Shown here: in pieces, positions 52,717 to 62,594 of the stretch
Numbering within the stretch: position 1 is the stretch's first letter
How the letters are laid out: every line of letters begins with the position of its first letter
NCBI GenBank assembly: GCA_020625875.1
Contig: JAHLAX010000070.1
Span: forward strand, 1 to 64,000
DNA: 64,000 nt
From: a bacterium
GTDB taxonomy: Bacteria; Bacillota; Clostridia; Oscillospirales; Acutalibacteraceae
Direction: 5' to 3'
Position numbers and translations under genes: made by a program
Notes under the pieces: generated by a model
The model's database searches: none
The model's input: only the letters and a program-made list of their open reading frames with translations
Told to the model about the DNA's origin: nothing

Positions 52717-55617
52717 TTATGTCAAATAATTTATTGTAATTATGTTACTGCTCGGGTCAAAGGTGAATCTCAGTTTTGAACCGACAGATAGTCCGTTAAT
52801 CGTAATGCTCTTTCCTCTCGAGCTCATCTCGGTGAGAGTGAACTCATCGCTTCCGCCTGCCGCGAAGGATGGCGTAGCGCTGGATTGGAGACTGAGGTAT
52901 TTTGACTTCTTGTTATCATATAGACTCAGGCTGATATTCTCAGCGGATACGGTGGTGTAATCAAGAGTATATGTGTTGTTCGTATAGCCGAAGTATGTGT
53001 CCTTGTTATCCCATCCGTGAACACCCGACTGATAGAACAAAAGCAGATAGTGCTCATTTTCGTTGACATTATGCTCGGGATTTGTGGGAATAGTCGGCTC
53101 AACAGAGCTGTTGAAGTTAAAGTTGCCGACCTTGCACTTACCGTCTGTTCCTGTTCCGCTGATATAGAAGCAGTTATGCTCAAAGTTTTCAAGCGTTATA
53201 TCGACAGTCTGGCTTCCGCCCTGACCGCTGTTGAAAATCATAGTTTTAAACTGTCCCGCGTAGTCGAACTTAACGCCATAGACATCGTGTCCGTAATTTG
53301 TGCCGACTTTCTGCATTTTAACACCAGGCCAGCTGGCGTTATTCGAGGAACCTGTCCACGCGTAGGCATAGACGTTCGCCCAATCATAGGTATTCTCGAA
53401 GTAGTAAATGTTCCTCAAATCGAACACCTGAGGCGCGCCAATATGCTCGGCAATCTCACGCAGCGAGGCTATTGACGAATCCAATTGCTCACTTGTTCCG
53501 TTATTCTTGCGCAGCTTTTTGAGAGCCTGATACTGGTCGTAGGAGGCAAAGGAATAATACGCGTCAAGATAAGTTTTCGCGTCATCACTTGAAGCCGCTG
53601 TCGAATACTTACCCTTTTTTCCGCTTAGCAGCTGTCCTGTGTCAGCGGGGAGCTTATTGATTCGCTTTACAAGCCAAAGCTGTATATATGTAGCGTCATC
53701 AATATCCACTATGCCGCTGCCGTCGGTGTCGGCAGCCTTTTCCTGCTGAGCGCTAAAATCTATTCTGCCCGCGAGCTTAAGCTGAATTGTGGTAACGTCA
53801 CGCACCGACACTTTTCCGTCGAGATTCGCGTCGCCGAGAATATAATCTTCTACAGGCTCGCTCTCGCTTGAAGCATCTGACGACGGATCGGTAACAGGTT
53901 CATTCTGCCACTTTTCGGCTTTAACCGTGTATTTACCGTCCTGAGTACCGTTGGGCGTAAAGAAATCGTTGGTACCGTCTAATGTAATATCAACTGTCTG
54001 AGAATTGTTGTCGCCGTTGTTCCATACTATGCCCGTATGCTCGGCGGGAATATCGCAGTAGTATAACTCTACATCGTTTTTATCCAAGCCGTATAACACA
54101 GCTCCGTACCCGGGCCATGTGCAGGTAACTGTCTGATTCTCGGTTGCCCAGCTGTGACAGTCAACGGTCCCCCATTTTTGTGTGTTGGCAAAGTAAATAC
54201 GCTTGGTTGCTGTTCCCTCAGGCAGAGTGCAGCCTGTAACGCCTGTAGTCGCTGACGGGTCTTTTGTTGTGGGCTGAGCGGTTTCGTTTGTCGCGTCAGC
54301 GAACGTTCCGCGCGCGCCGTCCATAATATAGCTGTAAGCGGGATAAATAAGCTCGTCAGTGAGGTCGGCGCCATAGTAGATAACGCTGCTGTCATAAACC
54401 TCAACAAGATAGCCCTGGGAGTCATAACCGCCTATGCCTTTCTCTTTATTATAATCAAGACCTGTGTCGTCGGCGTCTGCCCTGGTCGTACCCGCAACCG
54501 AGGGATTGTGAATCATAGAGCAGGCTGTTCCGTTTTCGTCGGAGTAGTTATAGCCCATTGAGAAGTCTTCATGGGTATGTCCCGACATCCAGATTAGTTT
54601 TGGATACTTTATCAAGAGATTTTTGAACTTAACAGTTGTAATATAACTCTCGCTCAGATGAGCCTTGTAATACGGTCTGCTCATACGGTCGCCCGCGCCA
54701 AAGCCGTCAATCGGCGAATGCTGAATAATATAGATGTTTACGCCCGTGCCGTAATAGGTTTTGAGCAGATTCTCTACCCAAGTCATCTGCTGCGAACTGA
54801 ACTCGTCGCATTTCGAGGGATTGGGATCATACTCGAGCGCCATAAAGATAAATACATCGCCCGTGGTTTTTTCGATCATATAATAATACGGCTTATTAGC
54901 GTCATAATTTGCTTTGGTGCTGTCAGTACCCGAAGCGCGCACGAACGATTTAATACCGCTTTCAACGCCACAGCGCATATCGTGGTTGCCGTCGCTTTCC
55001 CAGACAGGATTTACGTAATTGGAGTTTGCTAGAGTTTTTTCGTAATCATCCCACTCGCCGTCGGGACCCGCCGCGTTTGTAACGGTATCGCCCGAAGTTA
55101 CTATAAAATCAGTTTTTGTATCGACGCCGAACTTGAGCGCCTGCGCCCATCTCTCGGTTGCTTTGGTATAGAAGCCGTTTCTGTCGATGTGAATATCAGA
55201 ATATGAATTAAACTTATACTTAAGGCTGCCCGCGTTCAGTCGCTTATTGTCGGGAATTACATATTCCGCCGCAATACTGCCCGCGCTGTTCTTAGCGACA
55301 ACCCTTGTAGCTTTCGCGGGAATAGCGGTATGGTATCCAAACTTGAAGCTTGCCGATGAGACGGAAGTTAAGTCAAGCTCGGTAATCGGATAAAACCCGC
55401 TGAGAACATCGGTGTTATCAGCCCAGTAAAGCTTATATTTATCCGAGGTGTCGCTCGTTAAGCTCAGCGTTCCCTCGGCATAGCCCGAAAGATTATTCTT
55501 AAACACATAATTAATCTCTGTGCCAGTCACCGAAGACACCTCCGCCGCTGTAACAAAACAAATGGATATAAGCAAAAACGCCAGCAAAAGCGAAATAGGT
55601 TTAAGTGATTTTTTCAT
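52717..55617 (-). CDS. Secreted calcineurin-like metallophosphoesterase with dockerin type I and two starch-binding-like (CBM26-like) modules
   Basis: Signal peptide; SDIHID, TSGDTVTNAAG, ESDGNHD, IIQHSP, MSGHTHED; dockerin GDANLDGKVSVRDVTTIQLKLAG...ADTDGSGIVDIDDATYIQLWLVKRI; two modules IYFANTQKWGTVDCHSW... and IYYFENTYDWANVYAYAW... Confidence 0.85.
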   Translation of the reverse strand: MKKSLKPISLLLAFLLISICFVTAAEVSSVTGTEINYVFKNNLSGYAEGTLSLTSDTSDKYKLYWADNTDVLSGFYPITELDLTSVSSASFKFGYHTAIPAKATRVVAKNSAGSIAAEYVIPDNKRLNAGSLKYKFNSYSDIHIDRNGFYTKATERWAQALKFGVDTKTDFIVTSGDTVTNAAGPDGEWDDYEKTLANSNYVNPVWESDGNHDMRCGVESGIKSFVRASGTDSTKANYDANKPYYYMIEKTTGDVFIFMALEYDPNPSKCDEFSSQQMTWVENLLKTYYGTGVNIYIIQHSPIDGFGAGDRMSRPYYKAHLSESYITTVKFKNLLIKYPKLIWMSGHTHEDFSMGYNYSDENGTACSMIHNPSVAGTTRADADDTGLDYNKEKGIGGYDSQGYLVEVYDSSVIYYGADLTDELIYPAYSYIMDGARGTFADATNETAQPTTKDPSATTGVTGCTLPEGTATKRIYFANTQKWGTVDCHSWATENQTVTCTWPGYGAVLYGLDKNDVELYYCDIPAEHTGIVWNNGDNNSQTVDITLDGTNDFFTPNGTQDGKYTVKAEKWQNEPVTDPSSDASSESEPVEDYILGDANLDGKVSVRDVTTIQLKLAGRIDFSAQQEKAADTDGSGIVDIDDATYIQLWLVKRINKLPADTGQLLSGKKGKYSTAASSDDAKTYLDAYYSFASYDQYQALKKLRKNNGTSEQLDSSIASLREIAEHIGAPQVFDLRNIYYFENTYDWANVYAYAWTGSSNNASWPGVKMQKVGTNYGHDVYGVKFDYAGQFKTMIFNSGQGGSQTVDITLENFEHNCFYISGTGTDGKCKVGNFNFNSSVEPTIPTNPEHNVNENEHYLLLFYQSGVHGWDNKDTYFGYTNNTYTLDYTTVSAENISLSLYDNKKSKYLSLQSSATPSFAAGGSDEFTLTEMSSRGKSITINGLSVGSKLRFTFDPSSNIITINYLT

Positions 55618-55732
55618 ATCATTCACCTCTTGCAAATAAATATATATATTAATTATAGTATAAATCCTGTGCTGATTTATAGCGGCAATATGCACAATTT
55701 TTCACGCTCTGTTTAGTGCTAATTAACCAAAA

Positions 55733-55770
55733 GAAAAGCTGCCTTTATGAGGCAGCTTTTACATTGATTT
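55733..55770. terminator. Terminator hairpin for CHAP-domain gene
   Basis: AAAAGCTGCCTTTATGAGGCAGCTTTT. Confidence 0.75.
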
Positions 55771-58133: not shown

Positions 58134-58916
58134 TTACAAATATTCTATTATTTCAGCCAAAAAAAGCTGAATCATTGTAGCGTCTCTGATATTGATTTTA
58201 CCGTCGTAGCAGACCTGAGCGACAGTTTTTTGATTATCATTCAAAGATTTTTTGTCAACCAACGCCAGCTGAAGCTCGGTTACATCGTTTATGTTGACAC
58301 TGCCGTTTAGGTCAATATCGCCTTTTAAGTGAGCGAACTTCGCGTCGACAGAGAAGCCTTCTGCCGCTATTTGACTATGCGAAATCAGCTTTACGTCGCC
58401 GTCCACCGATATATCTTCAGCTTCATTGTCATTTACGCAGGTTTTGTTGGCAATCAGGTTTACGAATTCAACTGTTATATCCTGACTTTCTATATCATCA
58501 ATCGCCTCAACAGTATATGTCAAAAGCGCGTGTTCGGCTGTAAAATCATAAAAGCCCGTGCCCGCGGTAAAAGTGGTTATTACCGAATTATATGTCAACT
58601 GACGTTCCTCGGTCAGGTTAGAAACAGCGGATACTCCGCTATTTCCCCTGCAATCCGTTACCCTGAGCTTTGAGCTGTCAAAGCTCAGCACAACTGTTCC
58701 GTCAACAATTTTTAAATCCGAGCGCAGACTGATTGTAACATCAAAGCTTTCGCCCTTGCCCGCGCTTTGCGAAAATGATTCAAAAAATCCTTGATTTGAT
58801 TTTATCGTCACATGATTATTTACACCGCCCCGCGCGGACGCGGAAAACGGAAAAACACACATAAGCGCGCACAGCAAAACCGCAAAAGGTTTTTTTAATA
58901 TATTCAAATTAATCAT
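58134..58916 (-). CDS. Secreted protein with cohesin-like domain and C-terminal dockerin type I
   Basis: Signal peptide; SAGKGESFDVTISLRSDLKIVDGTVVLSFDSSKLRV...; DIDLNGSVNINDVTELQLALVDK...CYDGKINIRDATMIQLFLAEI; start overlaps upstream stop. Confidence 0.78.
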   Translation of the reverse strand: MINLNILKKPFAVLLCALMCVFPFSASARGGVNNHVTIKSNQGFFESFSQSAGKGESFDVTISLRSDLKIVDGTVVLSFDSSKLRVTDCRGNSGVSAVSNLTEERQLTYNSVITTFTAGTGFYDFTAEHALLTYTVEAIDDIESQDITVEFVNLIANKTCVNDNEAEDISVDGDVKLISHSQIAAEGFSVDAKFAHLKGDIDLNGSVNINDVTELQLALVDKKSLNDNQKTVAQVCYDGKINIRDATMIQLFLAEIIEYL

Positions 58917-59715
58917 CCTCGTCATAGAACGGGTCGGTATCCTCAATCGCCTTCTTGGCGAAAGGCACCGAATAAGGAATCATCGAAAGCTGAAAGCCGT
59001 TGAGATGAGGTGAAGCAGCAATCGAGATGCCCTTAAAAATTTCTTCCATATTGCTGCCTGTGAAATCAACAATCACCAGATAACTCGGCTTTTCGTCATT
59101 TTCACGCTTAAATGTACGCAGATAAGCTCTGTGAACATCGTCGCGCTCGTTGAGATAGTTGATAACCGCCGCCATCATATCTACAGGATATTCGTCGGGA
59201 GCGGGATCGCCCAGCTCAACCTTTTCGTCGTTGCGGATTTCCTGCTTATTTAGCCCATCGCCGCGGCTGTCCTTTTGCTCCTTGAGCGACATAACCATAG
59301 GCTTTGGGAAAGCGACCGATTTGCCAAACGGATTTATAACAAAACCCATTACCTCGCACTGCGGTTCCGAAAGCACCTGAGCGTAGCTGTCAAAGGTCAT
59401 AACAACGTTATCCTTGCCCTTTGAACCTTCCCATTTCAGCTTTTCGGATTCATCGGTGAACGCGGGGAAAAACTTTTCTTTATTATTATTCTCGATAAGC
59501 TGAAACTGAACCTGAGTTTCCTGCTGCATCACAGTCGCGCCGTTTTGGTCGGTTTTTGCTACGTTGCGCGGTTTCGACACAACCCCAGGGGTAATAAACT
59601 GAGCCGCCATAACGCAATCAATCATATGATTAACGGTTTCGGGCGTGTTGTTCTCCTGCATCTGAGCTATTGCATCGAGAAGCTCAGGATTCTTTATATT
59701 CTCAACATTAGGCAT
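58909..59715 (-). CDS. SseB-like (enhanced serine sensitivity) domain protein
   Basis: N-terminal SseB-like DGCVMAAQFITPGV...FFPAFTDESEKLKW...GFVINPFGKSVAFPK and C-terminal YLNERDDVHRAYLRTFKRENDEKPSYLVIVDFTG. Confidence 0.8.
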   Translation of the reverse strand: MPNVENIKNPELLDAIAQMQENNTPETVNHMIDCVMAAQFITPGVVSKPRNVAKTDQNGATVMQQETQVQFQLIENNNKEKFFPAFTDESEKLKWEGSKGKDNVVMTFDSYAQVLSEPQCEVMGFVINPFGKSVAFPKPMVMSLKEQKDSRGDGLNKQEIRNDEKVELGDPAPDEYPVDMMAAVINYLNERDDVHRAYLRTFKRENDEKPSYLVIVDFTGSNMEEIFKGISIAASPHLNGFQLSMIPYSVPFAKKAIEDTDPFYDEDD

Positions 59716-61359: not shown

Positions 61360-62073
61360 TTAGTTGCTTTTTATTCCGTTATACGCGACAACCGCCGCGT
61401 CATCGTTCATATTGACGCGCAAATCATAGCAGTCAACCTGTTTTAAAAATCCGTCAATAAGGTCGAGCAGCTTGCCCATAAGCTCGGGCTGGCTGGGTCT
61501 GACGGTCTGATTGAGCATTTTAGCCACAACAGAGATTGTGTCAATCTTGCCGATGGAGTTTTCCTCGGCTCTCGAAAGAAAGCAAAGCGCCTTAGCGGGC
61601 ACTCGGATATTACACCCCATACCTTCCTTACCCTGCCACGGAGTACCGTAAACATAGAACACGCCGTCAATTTTGCGTACTATGGGCTTGTCGTCATTTA
61701 TAACCGTCACTCTGTCGCCAAAATTCTTCATCCAAAGATTGCGGTGAGTGCTCTTGCCCGTGCCGCTTTTTGCGGTAAACATTATTGCCTGATTGTCAAC
61801 GCTGATAGCCGAGCAGTGAAAGAAAAACGCGTCGTACCTGTCCATCACGACATAAATATATTTTCGGTACAACGCGGTAAATTCGAGCACGTGCGCCGCG
61901 ACATCGTACGGCGAAAGCACGCGCTCGTTTTCAATATCTTCTTCGGTAACTGCCACAGCGAACTCTGGCTCCTCGCCCTCGTCAGCTATGTAGTCTTTCA
62001 TAAGCTCGTATGTATAGCGGTACTTGATGTCCGCGCTGAAAACTATATCCGCGATTTTATAGTTAAAAATCAT
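61360..62073 (-). CDS. HPr-kinase-like P-loop protein (not canonical HprK)
   Basis: FFHCSAISVDNQAIMFTAKSGTGKSTHRNLWMKNFGDRVTVINDDKPIVRKIDGVFYVYGTPWQGKEG. Confidence 0.82.
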   Translation of the reverse strand: MIFNYKIADIVFSADIKYRYTYELMKDYIADEGEEPEFAVAVTEEDIENERVLSPYDVAAHVLEFTALYRKYIYVVMDRYDAFFFHCSAISVDNQAIMFTAKSGTGKSTHRNLWMKNFGDRVTVINDDKPIVRKIDGVFYVYGTPWQGKEGMGCNIRVPAKALCFLSRAEENSIGKIDTISVVAKMLNQTVRPSQPELMGKLLDLIDGFLKQVDCYDLRVNMNDDAAVVAYNGIKSN

Positions 62074-62594
62074 TATGGTCTGATAATTTCCGCGTAATAT
62101 CCGTCAGTTGTAACAGGAATCTTTTTGTATACACCTGATAAATATATCTGAATGGTTGTCGCGTCTCTGAGAGTCTTCTGAGCGTCGAGATATGTATCGC
62201 CGTTCTTTTCAAACGCTGCTGTGCGCTCTATCTTTTCTACGAGCGTAAGCTGATAGATGGTTACATCATTAATATTTACCTTTCCGTTGCCGTCAACATC
62301 GCCCGCAAGGTATGTAACCTCTTCTCCGCCATTTGTTTCGGGATCAGTCTCATCTCCTACGGGAGAGGAACCTACGTTGTCAATATAATCATCAACCGAC
62401 TCTATTTCTTTGTCTATAACTTTGGGCTCGCCGCCTGCTTCTTCAGAGGCATAAACCGTAACAGCCGAGAAGCAAACCAATGCCGCAATCAAAAGCGCTA
62501 TAGCTGATAACATAAATCTTCTATTCATAATTACCAAAACCTTTCTGTCCGCGTTCTTACTTTTATGCCTCACCGCGGACTGATAAAGCATCAA
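62073..62594 (-). CDS. Secreted dockerin type I-like protein
   Basis: Signal peptide; YLAGDVDGNGKVNINDVTIYQLTLVEKIERTAAFEKNGDTYLDAQKTLRDATTIQIYLSGV; start probably internal MNRRFMLSAI; stop/start overlap TAATG with next gene. Confidence 0.8.
   Translation of the reverse strand: MMLYQSAVRHKSKNADRKVLVIMNRRFMLSAIALLIAALVCFSAVTVYASEEAGGEPKVIDKEIESVDDYIDNVGSSPVGDETDPETNGGEEVTYLAGDVDGNGKVNINDVTIYQLTLVEKIERTAAFEKNGDTYLDAQKTLRDATTIQIYLSGVYKKIPVTTDGYYAEIIRP

Follow-up and report, generated by a model that had tools for sequence, protein, structure and literature searches.

The gene at 52717..55617 (-) of the 64,000-nt stretch of DNA analysed here (the window) encodes a 966-aa secreted metallophosphoesterase bearing two CBM26 modules with a dockerin between them and, at the C terminus, an X25/CBM69-like module, and on balance we favour its assignment as an amylosome component that hydrolyses starch phosphate esters, with the C6 and C3 monoesters of amylopectin as the likeliest targets. 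Targeting of the protein to starch is strongly supported, and the substrate is one that we infer. The identities of the modules, the intact metal site, the co-evolution with alpha-glucan-binding modules and the starch-related genomic context are all features that we read from sequences and predicted structures. An original prediction made on this DNA had proposed a complex-bound starch phosphatase; CBM26, secretion, the dockerin, cohesins in the same genome and an enzyme set of the R. bromii type all support the placement of the protein in that proposal, with dephosphorylation of starch itself as the predicted part.

Although the mechanically called open reading frame is longer, reaching a GTG at 55695, the ATG at 55617 (-) is the better start. 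The ribosome-binding-site-like AGAGGTG lies 6 nt 5′ of this ATG (55624..55630 (-)) and a TATAAT at 55652-55657 (-) is a likely −10 element, both identified by reading the sequence rather than by statistics. An intrinsic-terminator-like hairpin with 11 pairs and a T-rich tail (55734..55760 (-)) sits between the upstream CHAP/Big_2 gene and the esterase gene, which suggests that the latter has a transcript of its own.

The protein begins with a signal peptide (residues 1-25, 55543..55617; this and the following features are all on the (-) strand), read from the sequence as a KK n-region, a hydrophobic core and a cleavage-like site between TAA and E, with no lipobox in this region, which supports the secretion originally claimed. 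It is followed by an N-terminal beta-sandwich domain (residues ~33-130, 55228..55521), delimited by alignment and predicted structure, that invariably adjoins the esterase core, and by the calcineurin-like metallophosphoesterase core itself (residues ~136-432, 54322..55212), delimited by alignment and predicted fold. Behind the core come a first CBM26 (residues 473-565, 53923..54201), a type I dockerin (residues 594-650, 53668..53838), a helical linker, a second CBM26 (residues 737-830, 53128..53409) and the C-terminal module, CT (residues 857-962, 52732..53049). The two modules of about 100 aa that had been likened to CBM26 do belong to that family, as Pfam PF16738 matches two stretches (E 1.2e-21; 77.1 bits against a cut-off of 28.1) and our own HMM scores them at 91 bits and 126 bits, respectively; the second also matches R. 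bromii Amy16 and Sas6. The predicted dockerin pair likewise holds, with both Ca-binding repeats, DANLDGKVSVRD and DTDGSGIVDIDD, intact: the Dockerin_1 score was 20.9 bits in the whole-protein scan (cut-off 22.9) and 28.1 bits, which passes the cut-off, in the genome-wide search. When the full-length protein is compared with PDB sequences, the top match is R. bromii Amy16, aligned to both CBM26 modules and the dockerin. Two features had escaped the original prediction, the CT beta-sandwich and HX, a helical segment that is conserved (residues 672-723, 53449..53604). This segment, of about 60 aa, is present in nearly every clade member, including members that have no CBM.

At E ≤ 1, Pfam PF00149 (Metallophos) gives no match to the 966-aa protein. 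The paralogue and many relatives score about 26-43 bits against a cut-off of 21.5, and we assign the metallophosphoesterase domain on the basis of these above-threshold paralogues and orthologues, the invariant ligands and the predicted fold. The metal motifs listed in the original prediction were confirmed, with SDIH at 140, GDTV at 176, GNHD at 210 and GHTH at 346, and to them we add a histidine motif, QHSP at residue 299, that was absent from its list. The calcineurin-like ligand set D-x-H, GD, GNH(D/E), H and GHxH is present in full, and D141, H143, D177, N211, H212, H300, H347 and H349 are invariant in 62/62 aligned relatives. An AlphaFold2 model of residues 26-436 (pLDDT 95) has 157 PDB matches at E ≤ 0.001, and the best 50 of these are all metallophosphoesterase-fold or related phosphatase enzymes. 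The best folds, namely purple acid phosphatases, wheat purple acid phytase, Rv0805, SMPDL3A and Mre11, span phosphomonoesterases (purple acid phosphatases and phytases), phosphodiesterases (SMPDL3A and Rv0805) and a nuclease (Mre11), and among profile matches acid-sphingomyelinase-like phosphodiesterase 3a ranks first (E 1.9e-6).

The fold nearest to the two-domain esterase model is that of purple acid phosphatases and their phytases (4dhl, 6gj9), at 12-14% identity, but we rejected identity with this group, as the window protein has SDIH instead of DxG and GDTVT instead of GDxxY, and the tyrosine ligand is missing; residue 180, at the tyrosine position, is T here and T, S, G or N across the family. 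Metallophosphodiesterases of the SMPDL3A/Rv0805 type have the DxH...GD...GNH...H...GHxH pattern in common with the window protein, along with profile and fold matches, but they carry no starch module or dockerin, have another N-terminal domain and are only 14-16% identical to it. The catalytic site is predicted, from its ligands and modelled fold, to hydrolyse phosphate esters through a dinuclear metal centre.

The CT module belongs to no Pfam family; in the family set, 51 proteins together carry 57 copies of it, at most three each, and a histidine and a tryptophan are invariant in its alignment. Its predicted structure (pLDDT 92) is a beta-sandwich, and a comparison with 350,542 PDB chains returned only two matches below 0.001, to AmyP-SBD (2.5e-4) and to R. 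bromii Sca5 X25-2 (7e-4), at TM 0.50-0.58 and with no matching Pfam sequence family. Because both of these are starch-binding domains, the window protein probably has three starch-binding modules, two CBM26 and CT, and not two. Sca5 X25-2 binds maltoheptaose tightly and also binds amylopectin, whereas single X25 lobes of Sca5 on their own show no maltooligosaccharide binding (PMC9112005).

The window genome (2.4 Mb in 284 contigs) contains 21 dockerin matches, corresponding to about 20 dockerin proteins, and five cohesins above the cut-off. Among the dockerin proteins are several CBM26-bearing GH13 amylases or pullulanases and a Sas6-like protein, such that dockerin, cohesins and GH13-CBM26-dockerin enzymes, the genomic signature of an amylosome, occur together in one genome; others are CotH kinase-like proteins, a CBM26-bearing putative esterase, GH53, a papain-like peptidase and LRR proteins. 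The same genome encodes a paralogue of the esterase (L063:9121-11586) that is 37% identical to it over 836 aa and has CBM26, a dockerin and an AMPK1_CBM (glycogen-binding)/X25-like match just below the family cut-off. This paralogue has a GH31 gene on one side and, on the other, a pullulanase gene whose product carries dockerin and CBM26, and a second species (L092) shows the same pullulanase-esterase-GH31 order; a GH77 gene adjoins one Lachnospiraceae copy. We rejected gene neighbourhood as a general line of support, as pullulanase and GH31 neighbours occur in only two related genomes and most copies stand alone.

Several further proteins in this genome have modules in common with the esterase. 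A CotH kinase-like domain is joined to CBM26 and a dockerin at L065:3578-6247 (+) (contig C279), possibly a starch-bound secreted kinase of the same amylosome, and L199:4397-5854 (+) (contig C133) combines a dockerin and CBM26 with a putative esterase of PF00756, by its domains another starch-targeted enzyme that is not a glycosidase. Within the window, 58134-58946 (-) and 62073-62594 (-) encode small dockerin proteins of 270 and 173 aa that show no further Pfam family above threshold and have counterparts in a related genome (G185, L087). Just beyond the window and about 10 kb from the esterase gene, L064:17548-19901 (+) (contig C37 65547-67900) encodes at least 784 aa of a protein that has two CBM26 and in which no catalytic Pfam domain was found.

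A family scan over 84,980 species genomes yielded 201 relatives, of which the nearest 80 were kept, with modules called by home-made HMMs and Pfam. These 80 are all of Clostridia type (Ruminococcus, Lachnospiraceae and similar) and, by record titles, mostly from gut or rumen. CBM26 is found in 63/80, CT alone in 3/80 and CBM41 in 4/80 (as PUD, the pullulanase-associated domain, E 1e-16 to 1e-19); 9/80, of Lachnospiraceae type, have no known starch module and 1/80 is cut by a contig end. Dockerins occur in 22 of the 80. The commonest architecture is esterase, HX, CBM26 and CT, relative to which the window protein has an additional CBM26-dockerin block inserted behind the esterase. On a 95-row tree, CBM26/CT presence changes three times and dockerin presence nine times, which identifies starch targeting as a stable trait of these sequences and complex membership as a variable one. 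The esterase is thereby supported, from sequence, as evolutionarily coupled to alpha-glucan-binding modules of three or four kinds. Outside the clade there are dockerin-bearing relatives without CBM26 and plain secreted forms of 450 aa without any extra module; since module-free clade members and CBM26-free sister groups exist, the catalytic chemistry may be older than starch targeting. In the R. bromii genus, 52/100 sampled genomes carry the family at E ≤ 1e-60, compared with 2/391 genomes drawn from the class, the window genome being one of the two; the family is widespread in the gut and apparently undescribed.

In 14 relatives (L109, L118, L121, L122, L123, L124, L161, L164, L167, L168, L172, L173, L174 and L179), some with CBM26, some with CBM41 and some with no CBM, a cupin/HTH AraC-family regulator lies directly 3′ of the esterase gene and in the same orientation (e.g. 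L168:10054-10905), a position in which no AraC-type regulator is found at the window locus. An orthologue in RUG13054 (L106:7899-10976 = L087:7257-10337) contains one in-frame TGA within the esterase domain and is either a pseudogene or an assembly error.

The window organism falls, by sequence, within the R. bromii genus, which is presumably GTDB Ruminococcus_E (a name we deduced), because R. bromii Amy16 is matched at 100% identity over 116 aa in the same-genus genome G397. A search of this R. bromii genome found no homologue of the esterase family, and as R. bromii is the model amylosome species, the gene content indicates that the esterase is not essential to amylosomes. The window protein has its signal peptide, CBM26, dockerin and X25-like modules in common with R. 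bromii Amy10, Amy12, Amy16, Sas6 and Sas20 (PMC5814915, PMC9112005), but its catalytic module is a metallophosphoesterase and not GH13, and the esterase family does not figure among the amylosome proteins in the literature examined.

We propose that the signal peptide would direct export of the esterase, that the dockerin would attach it to cohesins on the scaffold of an amylosome of the R. bromii type and that the two CBM26 and the X25/CBM69-like CT module would keep it on starch; the modules thus probably place the enzyme outside the cell, on starch and in a cohesin complex. There the dinuclear-metal esterase would cleave the phosphate esters that plants add to starch, which would lift a block on processive amylolysis and liberate phosphate at the feeding site. 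We would expect these particular module copies to bind starch, the dockerin to bind cohesin and the esterase to act as a phosphatase on this substrate, to the benefit of the cell. Amylopectin monoesters at C6 and C3 are the abundant natural phosphate esters of starch, and because the protein would combine starch targeting with a phosphoesterase site, dephosphorylation of amylopectin is the most economical reading. Cereal starch, probably the main substrate in the rumen, is low in monoester phosphate, and this, together with the use of the fold by diesterases and nucleases, counts against the amylopectin reading. Glucan phosphate hinders processive starch-degrading enzymes (PMC13011383), and in plants its removal is needed for full starch breakdown (PMC9254107).

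All alpha-glucan phosphatases known to date are dual-specificity phosphatases (DSPs) (PMC13011383). Among these, laforin, SEX4, LSF2 and TgLaforin carry out the task proposed here, alpha-glucan dephosphorylation, and most combine, like the window protein, a phosphatase domain with a starch- or glycogen-binding module (PMC13011383, PMC9254107). However, they are intracellular eukaryotic enzymes of the PTP superfamily, whereas the window protein is secreted, bacterial and predicted to be metal-dependent and calcineurin-like, and with its metallophosphoesterase catalytic domain we rejected its membership in the DSP type.

A different substrate is unlikely but deserves weight in the form of a broad phosphatase or phytase-type enzyme that sits on starch particles and harvests phosphate from phytate, nucleotides and sugar phosphates, with starch binding merely positioning it at food. 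Phytate does go along with seed starch, purple acid phosphatases, the wheat phytase among them, are the nearest folds, and plain secreted relatives without modules occur, but the purple acid phosphatase tyrosine is replaced by T180, and repeated fusion to varied alpha-glucan-binding modules, together with the pullulanase-esterase-GH31 order, better suits a substrate borne on the glucan. We give little credence to a phosphodiesterase that would act on the amylose-complexed lysophospholipids of cereal starch, opening the lipid-amylose complexes, or on other granule phosphodiesters. The phosphorus of cereal starch is mostly lysophospholipid, the top-ranked profile match is a phosphodiesterase and the Rv0805 ligand set DxH/GNHD/GHxH is identical to that of the window protein, and yet we saw no lipid-binding feature in the window protein and the substrates of SMPDL3A itself are nucleotides.

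Two readings depart further from starch phosphate. The window genome encodes CotH-CBM26-dockerin (L065) and CotH-dockerin (L197) proteins, whose kinase activity might be countered by a phosphatase of the complex proteins; this seems highly improbable, as CotH is found in 158/161 genomes of the genus and the esterase in about half, and dockerin-free esterases also exist, and we rejected a matched CotH kinase-phosphatase pair on this unmatched occurrence and the near universality of CotH in the genus. That the fold is retained for chemistry other than phosphate-ester hydrolysis, or as a non-catalytic domain, we can scarcely credit: the calcineurin-like lasso-peptide epimerase MslH provides a precedent (PMC10406935), and the window copy lacks a Pfam Metallophos score, but all 62 aligned relatives keep the metal ligands and the catalytic GNH histidine unchanged.

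We found no report in the open-licence literature of a starch-binding or dockerin-bearing metallophosphoesterase, nor of a microbial extracellular enzyme that removes starch phosphate; to our knowledge, this removal has so far been described only for unrelated plant and animal enzymes. The individual parts of the window protein are all known, and it is their combination, spread and probable task that are new. We consider it an evenly balanced proposition that gut Ruminococcus and Lachnospiraceae evolved secreted starch phosphatases from the calcineurin-like fold, convergent in task with SEX4 and laforin, through repeated joining to CBM26, CBM41, X25/CBM69-like and CBM48-like modules, with some lineages entering the amylosome via dockerins. 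Phosphate is the chief natural covalent decoration of starch and obstructs processive enzymes, and starch dephosphorylation by this family, if true, would explain the full use of phosphorylated (e.g. potato) starch by gut degraders, would supply an enzyme of practical value in starch processing as well as a marker, readable from genomes, of high-phosphate resistant starch use, and would widen the amylosome past glycoside hydrolases in a case of convergence on glucan dephosphorylation.
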